55,736 nt of DNA, from the NCBI GenBank assembly GCA_020852515.1, contig JADZAS010000019.1, positions 1 through 55,736 on the forward strand, written 5' to 3'. Source of the DNA: Phycisphaerales bacterium. GTDB lineage: Bacteria > Planctomycetota > Phycisphaerae > Phycisphaerales > UBA5793. The translations under genes were made by a program, and so were the position numbers. This document shows positions 2,881 through 7,593 of the stretch, piece after piece. Each line of letters begins with the position of its first letter. The first letter of the stretch is position 1. The notes beneath the pieces are model-generated. The model saw nothing but the letters and a program-made list of their open reading frames with translations. It made no database searches and had not been told where the DNA came from.

Positions 2881-5800
2881 ATGAACCGCGAGACAGAGAA
2901 GCCGACGGACCTGGGAGGCGGTCGCCTGACCGATCTGCTCCGTCCGCATGCCAGGCGCCTGGCGCTGGTCGTCGTGCTGCTCTCGCTGCTGGTGGCGACG
3001 AATCTTGCGCTGCCATACGCGGTCAAGCTGCTCATCGACGACGTGTTCCCGCACGAAGACGGCACGGGCGGCAACTGGACGCTGCTGTGGGCCATTCTGC
3101 CGCTGCTGGGCCTGATCTACGTCATTCGCAATGCGCTGTTCTATCCCAGCCGCATGCTCTCGGTTCGCGTGAGCGAGGACGTGTGCTTCTCGATGCGCAA
3201 GCGGCTGTTCGAGTACCTCCAGCAGCTGAGCCTGCGCTTCTACAAGGCGCAGCAGCCGGGCAAGGTCGGCTCGCGCCTGCTCGATGACACGTTCAAGATC
3301 CAGTTCTTCATCCAGGACAAACTGCCGACGCTCCTGCTCAATGTCCTGATGGCGCAGGTGCTGCTGATCATTCTTTATGCGGTCAACTGGCGACTGGCGC
3401 TGGCGAGTTCGATCGTGCTGCCGCTGCACTTCGGCACGTACTGGTTCTTCAAGCGGCCCATCAAGCGGCGGCACACCGAGGCGCAGGAGAACATCGCCGC
3501 GGCGTACGGCAACGTGATCGAAAAATACCTCGGCGTGGAAGTGGTCAAGGGCTTTACGGGTGAAGGGCGCGAGAAGGCCCAATTCCACCGCGCCATCGAC
3601 GCCAGCCGCCACAGCCAGATCGGCACGCAGCGCTACGAGTTCATGCAGAAGGTGGTGGGGGACCTGTTCGTCGGCGTGGGCACGGTGTTCCTGTTCGGCT
3701 TCGGCGCCTGGCAGGTGATGAAGGGCCACATGACCGGCGGCACGTTCATCATGTTTTTCGGCTACGTCGGCATGTTGTATCCCGCCATGCAGGAAGTCAT
3801 CAGCGGCACGAGCCACCTCTCCAAGACCACCGCCTGCGTCGATCGCGTGTTCGAGATGCTCCACCAGCCCGATGCCGAATCCGACAGCGTGCCGGCGGCG
3901 TCCGGGCAGGTCGCGGCGGCCCCGCTGCTCGGGGCGATCGAGTTCCGCAATGTCTCCTTCGCCTTCGGCCATGGCCGCACCATCCTCAAGAACATCAGCC
4001 TGACCATCCGGCCCGGCGAGCGCGTGGCCATCACCGGCCCCAGCGGTTCGGGCAAGAGCACGCTGCTCAACCTGCTGCCGCGATTCATCGATCCGACCTC
4101 GGGCCAGGTGCTGGTGGATGGGCACGATGTCCGCTCCGTTCCCATCAACAAACTGCGCAGCGCCATCGGCATCGCTTTCCAGGAGGTCTTCCTCTTTGAC
4201 GCGTCCATTTCGGAGAATCTGCGCTATGCGCGGCCGGATGCGACGGAAGAAGAGTTGGCCGACGTCTGCCGCCTGACCGGCGCGGATCGTTTCATCGAGA
4301 AGAGGCCCGACGGCTATGACAGCCGCATCGGCCCCAACGGCAGCGACTTGTCGCGCGGCGAGCGGCAGCGCATCAACCTGGCCCGCGCCCTGCTCAAGCA
4401 GCCTCTCCTGCTCGTGCTCGACGAGGCGACGGCGTCGATCGACAATCGATCATCCGTCACCATCATCCAATCGATCCTCTCCCGGTTTCGCACTCGAACG
4501 GTGGTCATGATCACGCACAAGCCCGAACTGCTCGAACTGGCGGACCGCGTCGTGGTCATCCGCGACGGAAGAGTGGCCTTTGACGGCCCGCCGGGCGAAT
4601 CGGCGCTGCTCGATCTGCGAGAGACCCCGTTGCGCGGCGCGGGAGACACGCCGCTGCGCTCGCCCGTTCCGGACCGGCTCATCACCACGGTTCGCGATGG
4701 AGCGAAGACCGATATGCCGACGGAGGAGAAAGAGGAGGCGTCGCCCGTCAGTTCCGAGAAACCCGTCCAACAGAGAGCCACCGTGGAATCAAAGCCGCAC
4801 CTCCAGGTTCCTCGAACCACCATCACATCCATCCTCATCGTCGGCTGGGCGCTGCTCGGTCTGTTGAACCCCGGGTGCGTTTCGGAGAGCACCTCGACTC
4901 GGACATACGGCATCGAATCGGCTCGCGCCAGCGGCGGACTGCTCGTCGCCGATCCAGCCGAAGCGGATGCGCTGCGCCTTCGCGACGCGATCGAAAGCAG
5001 CGAGAGCGAGCAGGGGCCGTTGCGGCTTGTGGACCCGGGCGGGCGGCTCTCACCCACGCGCGAAGACATCGCTTTCGCGCAGTCGATTGCAGGGGGCGAG
5101 CCAGAGCGCGTGTCACTGGCCGAGCGGCAGGTCGAAGCCGCGCTGGCTCAGCCCGAATCGGCGGCCCCGGCGCTGCCGCCCGATGCCGGCAAGCTGATCA
5201 CCGTGCCGCGCCTGAGCAGCACCGAACTCGGCGAGATGATCCGAAGCCTGGCCCTGGCCTTCGAAACCGAACAGGGCTACAGCGAAGTGACCGCCGATTC
5301 GATCGAAGGACTACCGCCTCTGCCAGAGGAGATCAATTATCTCACGGTGCTCGGCAGACATGCGGCCGACGGCACGCAGAGCGTTCTGGCGCTGGGGTAT
5401 CGCACGTCCCTCTCCCAGCCGCCGCAGGTCTGGGCTGTCGGGCTGCAGCGGACGGCGGCCGAGGCGCCCTGGGCGGTGAACCCGGATCTGGCTCAGGTGC
5501 AGACACGCACGGAAGCGCTCGTCGCCGGCCTCGACGCCATGCGGACGAACCTCACCCCGGAGAATCTCAGCCGAAACGTCATCCAACTCAGTTACATCGA
5601 CGCGACCGGTGCGCTGACGGCGCTGCAGGGGCTGGGCGTCAACGTAGTCGCCAATGCCGCGCAGGTGCCCCAGCAGATCGAGTACGCCAAGCTCCCGCTC
5701 GTGGTGCAGTTGCCTTCGCCGACTCCGGAGCAGACGGGCTTGGTTGGCAGTTCGGGAACGGTGCAGGGCAACTTCGGCGTCACCGTGCTGCCCAACACCG

Positions 5801-7593
5801 CCGCGCCGCTCTCGCCCGATCTCGTTTCTTCGCCTTCTTCGCGGCTGCTGGTGCTCTATCACCCCGCGAACCCGCAGCAGCTGGCCCGGGTGCGCAATCT
5901 GCTGACGGACTACATCGACCGGCCGGCGCGGCAGATCTTTGTCGAGGGCATGGTGCTGGAGATCAGCCAGGACGGGCTGGACGATCTCGGCATCGAGTGG
6001 CAGTTCCGCGAGGGCCCGATCGACCTTGTCCTGGGCAAACTCGTCGCCGGCGGTCTTGAAGACACGCTGGACTTCTCGCGCGTCGATTCGCGCGATGTGC
6101 CGCGCGACTGGTCAGCGCGCATCCGCGCCCTGGTGCGCGAGGGCAAGGCGGAGATCCTCTCGCGTCCCAGCGTGCTGACGATCGACAACCGCCAGGCGAC
6201 GATTCGCGTCGGCGAGGACATTCCCATCGCCACGAGCCAGGAAGGCACGGCCACCGGCTCGAACAAACTCTCGTTCAGTTTCCAGTACATCCCGACGGGG
6301 ATCCTGCTCAACGTCCGGCCGCGCATCACCGAGCGCGCCGACGAGATCAGCATGCTCATCGACACGGTCGTCTCGGCGGTGGTGCCCGGCCGCGATCTGG
6401 AGATTCGCTCCACGGATGGGGACCTGCTGGCGACGGCTCCGACGATCTCGACGCGGCGGGTGCAGACCTACGCCCGCATCGACAACAACACGCCGTTCAT
6501 CATCGGCGGGCTGGTCAGCCGCGATCTCACCATCACCAAGGACAAAGTGCCGCTCCTGGGCGATCTGCCGCTTGTCGGCCTGCTCTTTCAGGCTCAGCGG
6601 ACGCAGCGGCTCAAGCGCGAAGTGATCATCGTGCTCACACCCTACGTGCTGCCCGAGGACATCTACGTAGCCGGGCCGATGCCCAAGGATGAAGACCTTT
6701 TCGACAGTTTCGGCAACAAGCTGTTCCGCGACTCGTATCGCCTGCGCGCCGAAGACGTGTTTGATCTGCGCTTCCTGCCCGAGAATCGGCGCATGGTGAC
6801 GTACAGCAGCCTCGCGGCCCGGGCGGTCCGCCAAGATGCGCGCCTGGCCAACGTCGAGCCGTTCAGCGAGTTCATCCACGGCCGCATCCCCGGCGAAGAC
6901 ATCCTTGTCCATCGCATGATCTACGAACTCATCAAGCGGCTGGACGTGCGCGGCACCGAGCACGACCTGAGCAAGCAGATCCAGATCGAGCGGCTGATCT
7001 ATCTCGAATCCGAACAGTTCGGCGGCTACTCGGTTCAGTTCCTTGAGAACGCCATGTCCAGGTTGGGCAAGGGCACGGACTACGCCTCGTTCTTCAAGCA
7101 GAATCCGGACAAGGCGCTGGTGCTGACCTACCACTACGACCGGGAGTCGGATGATCCACTGCACCTGGGCACCGAGCCCATTCCGGAGTTGGCCGTTTAC
7201 GACTGCCCGGATCGCAAGGCATGGGGGAAGCTGCTGTGGGAGTTGAACCAGGCGCTGCCGGATGGCCGCAAGCGGTTCAGCGTCGTTCTCAACGATGAGT
7301 CCGATCTCGTGCGGCTCCGCCGCGCGATCATGCTCAAGAAGGTGATCGCCGCCAACGGCGGACAGAGCCAGTCCACGCTGGCGAACTTCAGCGTCGGCAA
7401 GGTGCTCATGATGCCCGAGACCAAGGAAGGGCAGACGAACATCCTCGACGCTGATGTCGCCCGGCTCTTTTTCCACACCGAGCACTACTACTCGGCGGCG
7501 ATCAATGAAATCGAGGAACGCATCGCCGAACTCGACGCGGCCCTGCGATCGCCTGAGATCAGGCCGCTGCTCGATGGGGCGGAGCTGCCCTGA
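2881..7593 (+). CDS. ABC exporter half-transporter fused in frame to a secretin-like protein
   Basis: One uninterrupted frame of 1570 codons. Residues ~20-320 form a six-helix ABC exporter membrane domain. Residues ~353-590 are the nucleotide-binding domain: Walker A GPSGSGKST at 386, signature LSRGE at 490, Walker B with D514/E515, H-loop H546. A charged linker (~590-645) leads to a hydrophobic segment at ~648-662 followed by Cys666, resembling a lipoprotein signal. Residues ~667-1010 look like secretin N-domains. A secretin core follows at ~1015-1265, with VPLLGDLPLVGLLF at 1223-1236 as its hallmark. The last ~300 residues are unassigned. If made as one chain, the NBD is cytoplasmic and helix 648-662 would place the secretin in the periplasm and outer membrane. 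An internal ATG at 4714 (GGAG 11 nt upstream) or a GTG near 4783 could also give a separate secretin, but the ABC half has no stop of its own. A lost stop codon or assembly error remains possible. Substrate unknown. Confidence 0.9.
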   Translation: MNRETEKPTDLGGGRLTDLLRPHARRLALVVVLLSLLVATNLALPYAVKLLIDDVFPHEDGTGGNWTLLWAILPLLGLIYVIRNALFYPSRMLSVRVSEDVCFSMRKRLFEYLQQLSLRFYKAQQPGKVGSRLLDDTFKIQFFIQDKLPTLLLNVLMAQVLLIILYAVNWRLALASSIVLPLHFGTYWFFKRPIKRRHTEAQENIAAAYGNVIEKYLGVEVVKGFTGEGREKAQFHRAIDASRHSQIGTQRYEFMQKVVGDLFVGVGTVFLFGFGAWQVMKGHMTGGTFIMFFGYVGMLYPAMQEVISGTSHLSKTTACVDRVFEMLHQPDAESDSVPAASGQVAAAPLLGAIEFRNVSFAFGHGRTILKNISLTIRPGERVAITGPSGSGKSTLLNLLPRFIDPTSGQVLVDGHDVRSVPINKLRSAIGIAFQEVFLFDASISENLRYARPDATEEELADVCRLTGADRFIEKRPDGYDSRIGPNGSDLSRGERQRINLARALLKQPLLLVLDEATASIDNRSSVTIIQSILSRFRTRTVVMITHKPELLELADRVVVIRDGRVAFDGPPGESALLDLRETPLRGAGDTPLRSPVPDRLITTVRDGAKTDMPTEEKEEASPVSSEKPVQQRATVESKPHLQVPRTTITSILIVGWALLGLLNPGCVSESTSTRTYGIESARASGGLLVADPAEADALRLRDAIESSESEQGPLRLVDPGGRLSPTREDIAFAQSIAGGEPERVSLAERQVEAALAQPESAAPALPPDAGKLITVPRLSSTELGEMIRSLALAFETEQGYSEVTADSIEGLPPLPEEINYLTVLGRHAADGTQSVLALGYRTSLSQPPQVWAVGLQRTAAEAPWAVNPDLAQVQTRTEALVAGLDAMRTNLTPENLSRNVIQLSYIDATGALTALQGLGVNVVANAAQVPQQIEYAKLPLVVQLPSPTPEQTGLVGSSGTVQGNFGVTVLPNTAAPLSPDLVSSPSSRLLVLYHPANPQQLARVRNLLTDYIDRPARQIFVEGMVLEISQDGLDDLGIEWQFREGPIDLVLGKLVAGGLEDTLDFSRVDSRDVPRDWSARIRALVREGKAEILSRPSVLTIDNRQATIRVGEDIPIATSQEGTATGSNKLSFSFQYIPTGILLNVRPRITERADEISMLIDTVVSAVVPGRDLEIRSTDGDLLATAPTISTRRVQTYARIDNNTPFIIGGLVSRDLTITKDKVPLLGDLPLVGLLFQAQRTQRLKREVIIVLTPYVLPEDIYVAGPMPKDEDLFDSFGNKLFRDSYRLRAEDVFDLRFLPENRRMVTYSSLAARAVRQDARLANVEPFSEFIHGRIPGEDILVHRMIYELIKRLDVRGTEHDLSKQIQIERLIYLESEQFGGYSVQFLENAMSRLGKGTDYASFFKQNPDKALVLTYHYDRESDDPLHLGTEPIPELAVYDCPDRKAWGKLLWELNQALPDGRKRFSVVLNDESDLVRLRRAIMLKKVIAANGGQSQSTLANFSVGKVLMMPETKEGQTNILDADVARLFFHTEHYYSAAINEIEERIAELDAALRSPEIRPLLDGAELP

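Follow-up and report, generated by a model that had tools for sequence, protein, structure and literature searches.

Does the unbroken reading frame that joins an ABC exporter to a secretin in a Phycisphaerales bacterium represent a real gene, and what would become of its product? The DNA analysed here, referred to as the window, is a stretch of 55,736 nucleotides, and the frame in question occupies positions 2881–7593 on the plus strand, the strand of all window features given below. It encodes 1570 residues without a stop and comprises an ABC half-exporter, a linker, an internal signal and a secretin. Residues 28–299 (2962–3777) form the exporter transmembrane domain (Pfam PF00664 ABC_membrane, 6.8e-35) and residues 369–518 (3985–4434) the nucleotide-binding domain (PF00005 ABC_tran, 1.7e-32). 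Walker A (residues 386–394), the signature LSRGE (490–494), Walker B (509–516) and the H-loop His546, which lies slightly past the domain match, were all located. With both Pfam domains and these motifs in place, the exporter half belongs to the type IV ABC exporters, and the complete half-exporter described in the first-pass annotation of the window was recovered; its closest solved structures are P-glycoprotein, TM_0288 and Sav1866.

Behind the exporter, the frame continues through a variable linker of about 80 residues (571–647; 4591–4821), which is charged as had been predicted (K/R/D/E at 25 of 83 residues). It is followed by a hydrophobic segment at residues 648–666 (4822–4878) that resembles the h-region of a signal peptide and ends in a lipobox-like LNPG-C666. 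The secretin core or outer-membrane barrel, residues 1083–1257 (6127–6651), was matched by PF00263 (2.3e-42; 144.9 bits compared to a gathering score of 27.5) and carries the secretin motif VPLLGDLPLVGLLF at residues 1223–1236. Both the hydrophobic, Cys-containing segment and the motif-bearing core were thus found where they had been placed. The nearest relative of the core among the PDB matches is GspD (E 5.5e-38), and alignment with pIV by VIA-align gave a Z of 13.2. The fused protein as a whole did not reach the cut-off of any of the 25 NCBIfam families shown.

The joined frame might result from an assembly or sequencing error, or from the recent chance loss of a stop in one genome. The window genome is a draft, and one relative, G005 (L045/L070), has a fused gene with a frameshift in the ABC part near residue 320, representing either a pseudogene or a sequencing error. 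However, when 60 relatives were searched, each of the four further species of the genus proved to have the same unbroken frame, at 76–94% identity, and continuous frames were also found in several other families within the order. Named genomes were scanned as well and yielded 80 loci. By six-frame inspection, a single frame encodes both ABC exporter and secretin at many of these; at about twenty, the two are encoded by neighbouring genes, the one for the ABC exporter lying directly upstream. In an order-wide sample of 400 genomes, this secretin was present in 70, and 41 of these, as counted from the listed open frames and including the frameshifted G005, have the fusion in one frame of at least 1310 residues. 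In the remaining secretin-bearing genomes the genes are separate or cut by contig ends. Fused frames also occur in records titled as chromosome or complete genome (L119, CP066225; L120, CP087563; L076, CP070772), and the linker displays a dN/dS below 1. Relatives with the identical continuous frame rule out a misassembly, and the probability that we assign to an artefact of any kind is negligible. We therefore regard the ABC-secretin fusion as real and conserved: all five species of the genus keep the frame, as do many other genera. The outcome that the first-pass annotation had named as evidence against the fusion, a stop between the two halves in relatives, does occur in many of them, while many others keep the fusion, so that fused and split states both persist among relatives.

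A few loci deviate from these arrangements. At L048 (G023) the order is reversed: the ABC gene is separate and follows the secretin gene, and the ABC match contains one TGA. At L075 the secretin frame has no ATG ahead of the signal, only TTG candidates, and does not lie in the frame of the upstream ABC gene, which points to a frameshift or an unusual start. At L046, a portion of the secretin tail is present a second time near the fused gene, at 4915–5181 on the minus strand (50% identity over 89 residues).

Of the loci tabulated, 36 are fused, and the junction was analysed in these. The coding frame of the linker is open in all 36, whereas each of the other forward frames is open in 13 of 36. 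When the window is compared with L060, its nearest relative, dS and dN of the linker are 0.31 and 0.14 (dN/dS 0.44), and over all pairs of measurable length its dN/dS ranges from 0.26 to 0.58. The values for the two domains are lower (0.02–0.19 where measurable). Because dN/dS is 0.26–0.58 wherever it could be measured, we concluded on comparative grounds that the linker is translated, which agrees with the earlier description of a frame that crosses the linker without a stop.

A hydrophobic stretch follows the nucleotide-binding domain and the linker in all 36 fused proteins. In 23 of them it runs into a lipobox-like Cys with A, G or S at position −1, an arrangement seen in 0.4% of all 20-residue stretches of these proteins. 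Such a Cys is absent from the remaining 13, which carry instead a candidate signal-peptidase-I site of the AxA type, picked by eye (for example PALA|QD, PAFA|QN, TAHA|QD and SVLA|AD). The AxA pattern occurs by chance in 39% of 25-residue stretches, and its use as proof of signal-peptidase-I sites was dropped for this reason; the evidence for these sites rests on position, appearance and agreement within clades. Among the fused proteins with candidate signal-peptidase-I sites (L112, L119–L121, L124, L126, L127 and L129), the residue behind the predicted cut is frequently Gln (A|Q), recalling the Q-rule of Bacteroidetes (PMC5837995).

Stand-alone secretins were inspected for their N-terminal signals, which are mostly of the type found in the fused members of the same clade: lipoprotein-like in L064–L069, L071–L073, L077–L082 and L095, and signal-peptidase-I-like in L114, L115, L118, L128 and L038. 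The internal segment of the window protein reads NPGC-VSESTSTRTYGIESARASGG, a motif shared with the N-terminal signals of stand-alone secretins, and the motif that follows the Cys of the latter, GCTHSQQQTRTIELETPQISGG, equals that inside the window protein, NPGCVSESTSTRTYGIESARASGG. Since the stand-alone signals share both the clade type and the post-Cys motif, the segment at residues 648–666 is most simply interpreted as homologous to an N-terminal signal peptide that was retained after fusion.

In the window genus, the lipobox is degenerate: position −2 is Pro, and position −3 is N, Y or P (NPGC, NPGC, YPGC, PPAC and PPAC in the five species). Examined at the homologous Cys, the proteins of this genus do not fit the PROSITE lipobox core, while the other fused proteins of the lipobox type pass, giving by inspection strict lipoboxes at this Cys in 18 of 23 proteins. 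A regular-expression search returned 20 of 23, but reached L060 and L061 via an earlier Cys. About 0.85 Mb of the source genome yielded 21 lipoprotein-like signals with A, G or S before the Cys, only one of which, LAPGC, is comparable. To judge from these residues, cleavage in the window genus may be less efficient.

The signal-like segment raises the alternative that the secretin is initiated at an in-frame start ahead of it, the read-through fusion being a by-product. Candidate starts do exist. In the L098–L109/L125 group a Met (MKHP...K) stands exactly at the expected start of the signal peptide, and L119–L121 and L126 have an ATG near the segment. All five species of the window genus have a GTG ahead of the segment, accompanied by GGAGG in L062 and by GAGG in L061. 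The separate-gene relatives show ATGA overlaps, a layout typical of translational coupling. In the window itself the possible starts are a GTG at residue 635 (4783–4785), which has no Shine-Dalgarno match there, and an ATG at residue 612 (4714–4716), which is not conserved in the genus (Ala in L040). However, the 45 codons before the segment contain neither ATG nor GTG nor TTG in L085, L111 and L124; internal initiation therefore cannot serve all fused genes, and a universal internal start is excluded. Few candidates have a Shine-Dalgarno match, and none does in the MKHP group. The linker is, moreover, under purifying selection and always in the ABC frame, neither of which is needed by internal initiation alone. 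Internal initiation may operate in the L098–L109/L125 group, as its Met suggests; as a general explanation of the fused frame we consider it unlikely.

Instead, we favour with reasonable though limited confidence a polyprotein: one chain that signal peptidase II or I would split into an exporter and a secretin or liposecretin, the two probably forming a two-part export route. The protein would be translated as a single chain, its type IV ABC half-exporter would insert into the inner membrane, and the nucleotide-binding domain and linker would stay in the cytoplasm. The internal signal peptide at residues 648–666 would then route the C-terminal half of 900 residues through Sec. This topology, with the N terminus inside, one membrane crossing and the C terminus outside, is the one that the first-pass annotation had proposed. 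In the group of the window, signal peptidase II would cut after lipidation of Cys666; in the other group, signal peptidase I would cut behind the segment. The freed secretin, a lipoprotein in the window's group, would reach the outer membrane and form multimers there; the exporter would dimerise in the inner membrane. The fusion would thus provide 1:1 co-synthesis, and cleavage would release the partners for differing stoichiometries. Both steps that this model combines have been described elsewhere: in LtaS of S. aureus, the signal peptidase SpsB cuts behind a polytopic membrane domain (PMC10865820), and the liposecretin HxcQ needs no pilotin to reach the outer membrane (PMC3542185).

The same frame and topology would also suit a single-chain device in which one membrane-crossing helix keeps exporter and secretin covalently linked, as originally proposed for this locus. 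The conserved frame is compatible with such a device, and the degenerate lipobox makes the window genus the best candidate for reduced cleavage. Against this stands the appearance of the junction, a short segment followed by cleavage-type features in 36 of 36 fused proteins, as well as the separation of the halves in many relatives. An ABC exporter is a dimer and a secretin ring has 12–15 subunits, a stoichiometry that would argue for separation. The periplasm would, in addition, have to be spanned by a variable stretch of low confidence, the AF2 pLDDT of the region behind the signal segment being below 50 in places. An uncut chain across both membranes is thus unsupported, since residues 648–666 resemble an internal signal peptide with cleavage features throughout the clades, and we rate it as somewhat less probable still than internal initiation. 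Because lipobox-like Cys residues or candidate signal-peptidase-I sites persist across clades, that is, because the cleavage features are kept in two forms, the sequences suggest that the polyprotein chain is meant for separation.

The AF2 model of the exported half (residues 648–1570) reached a pLDDT of 75.7 and comprises a periplasmic domain, N-domains and the secretin barrel. Barrel and N-domains gave VIA-align Z values of up to 13. The N-domain at residues 896–947 (5566–5721) aligned with the XcpQ N-domain (4e9j) at Z 7.0, and the last N-domain preceding the barrel was delineated by AF2 and VIA-align at residues 987–1035 (5839–5985). The domain at residues 766–890 (5176–5550) is weakly BamC-like or helix-grip-like; its Z values of 6–9 are near or below the level at which a mere common arrangement is possible, and too weak to name the domain. 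The C-terminal 297 residues (1274–1570; 6700–7590) were modelled with high confidence as an alpha/beta fold (pLDDT 90.2) and are well conserved across 66 relatives. This domain has no Pfam match in the window protein and no clear match in the PDB (best E of 0.22 by Foldseek, best Z of 2.9 by VIA-align), which does not prove a new fold. It may define this secretin family.

Several lines of evidence suggest that exporter and secretin work together. Pairwise distances of the ABC and secretin halves were strongly correlated over 56 loci (Mantel r 0.924; none of 2000 permutations as high), and relatives that encode the two separately have the genes side by side, in many cases with an ATGA overlap. 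Across the set of loci, no other gene is conserved beside the pair, be it an adaptor, a pilin or a T2SS gene. A conserved HlyD-type adaptor is likewise absent from the loci, an HlyD-family cluster occurring in 8 of 84 only, and neither the window nor the locus set has a conserved substrate gene adjoining the fusion. The source genome has eight secretin places and 17 places with PF00437; all 17 lie outside the window contig, C19. As no PF00437 occurs there and no such gene is conserved at related loci, a role of the secretin as a component of a T2SS or pilus was rejected. Co-divergence, adjacency, the lack of any other conserved neighbour and the lack of PF00437 on the contig together argue that the pair is probably a system of its own, with the exporter delivering to the secretin. 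From gene arrangement and sequence divergence, a two-part ABC/secretin export route is likely; the partnership is based on genetic linkage and co-divergence, the latter also being expected of co-inherited genes. In some pairs of the L098–L109/L125 group, such as L099 and L108, the ABC halves differ by 6% and the secretin halves by 46%, indicating recombination or replacement of the secretin within fused genes. The source genome also encodes a giant multi-ring secretin of 3563 residues (G000:C13, L153:7245–17936, minus strand), in which 33 Pfam Secretin_N stretches precede a C-terminal secretin core.

In other loci, the same secretin family adjoins a different membrane protein. Genes of one sequence cluster lie downstream of the secretin in L083, L084, L086–L090, L093, L097 and L132 and upstream of it in L137–L139, in records titled Verrucomicrobia and some others. 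The members of this neighbour cluster that were tested by Pfam (L083, L086, L093 and L137) have an MscS-channel domain, two of them together with a cNMP-binding domain. Because the same secretin adjoins a gene of this cluster in these loci, its inner-membrane partner has been exchanged between lineages, ABC exporter for MscS channel or the reverse, and such an exchange would suit a secretin that acts as a general exit. On an unrooted tree of 83 secretins, the fused label required eight changes, at least five of them forced by well-supported branches; fused versus separate-ABC labels required three changes and the signal type, as assigned by inspection, four. The tree, whose root is unplaced, fits an ancient fusion followed by several splits as well as several separate fusions.

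Taken together, we infer cleavage, assembly in the outer membrane and a direct partnership of the two products. The ATP-driven exporter and the secretin exit channel would form a two-part route in which the periplasmic domains of the secretin replace a separate adaptor. In its widest form, an adaptor-free trans-envelope route of ABC exporter and secretin made from a self-splitting polyprotein, with the secretin as a general exit that different lineages have coupled to an ABC exporter or an MscS-type channel and the C-terminal domain perhaps serving in docking or assembly, this proposal is tentative, and we hold it to be somewhat less than an even chance. If it is true, a secretin and a single ABC exporter would constitute a much simpler export route than the machines in which secretins are known, those of type II and type III secretion, type IV pili and phage export, and secretins would have a wider role. 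By virtue of its internal signal peptide, the protein would clearly exemplify a bacterial polyprotein whose two parts go to two different membranes, by means of signal peptidase II in some lineages and signal peptidase I in others. The fused and split forms in related bacteria offer a natural series for comparison. To our knowledge, the parts and the mechanism are known individually but their combination in one gene is not. The open-access literature searched contained no description of an ABC-secretin fusion or of a secretin-MscS pair, in keeping with the earlier view that the fusion is undescribed.

Compared to known systems, the putative route resembles type I secretion in that a type IV ABC exporter is the pump and an outer-membrane channel would complete the passage. 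However, type I secretion uses a TolC-like channel, in place of which a secretin is fused in the frame of the exporter here, and an HlyD-type adaptor, which is not conserved beside the fusion loci. With the half-exporters MsbA, Sav1866 and TM287-288 the fused protein shares architecture and motifs, but it is extended at its C terminus by a signal peptide and a secretin. GspD and HxcQ have the secretin core and preceding N-domains in common with the window protein, and its lipoprotein-like candidate signal resembles that of HxcQ. The core is related to GspD, although the fused protein scored 177.9 bits against the GspD NCBIfam cut-off of 351.35, and the window secretin differs from both by its C-terminal domain of 297 residues without known relative. 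Unlike in the T2SS, no T2SSE ATPase is encoded on the window contig, and the partner of the secretin is an ABC exporter here and an MscS channel in relatives. The closest parallels for the predicted processing are LtaS and the cytochrome b/c1 precursor FbcH of Bradyrhizobium, in which a polytopic membrane part and an exported part are made as one chain and a signal peptidase cuts at an internal site. In contrast to these, the product released here would be an outer-membrane secretin, and the predicted cut would be made by signal peptidase II or I depending on the clade.
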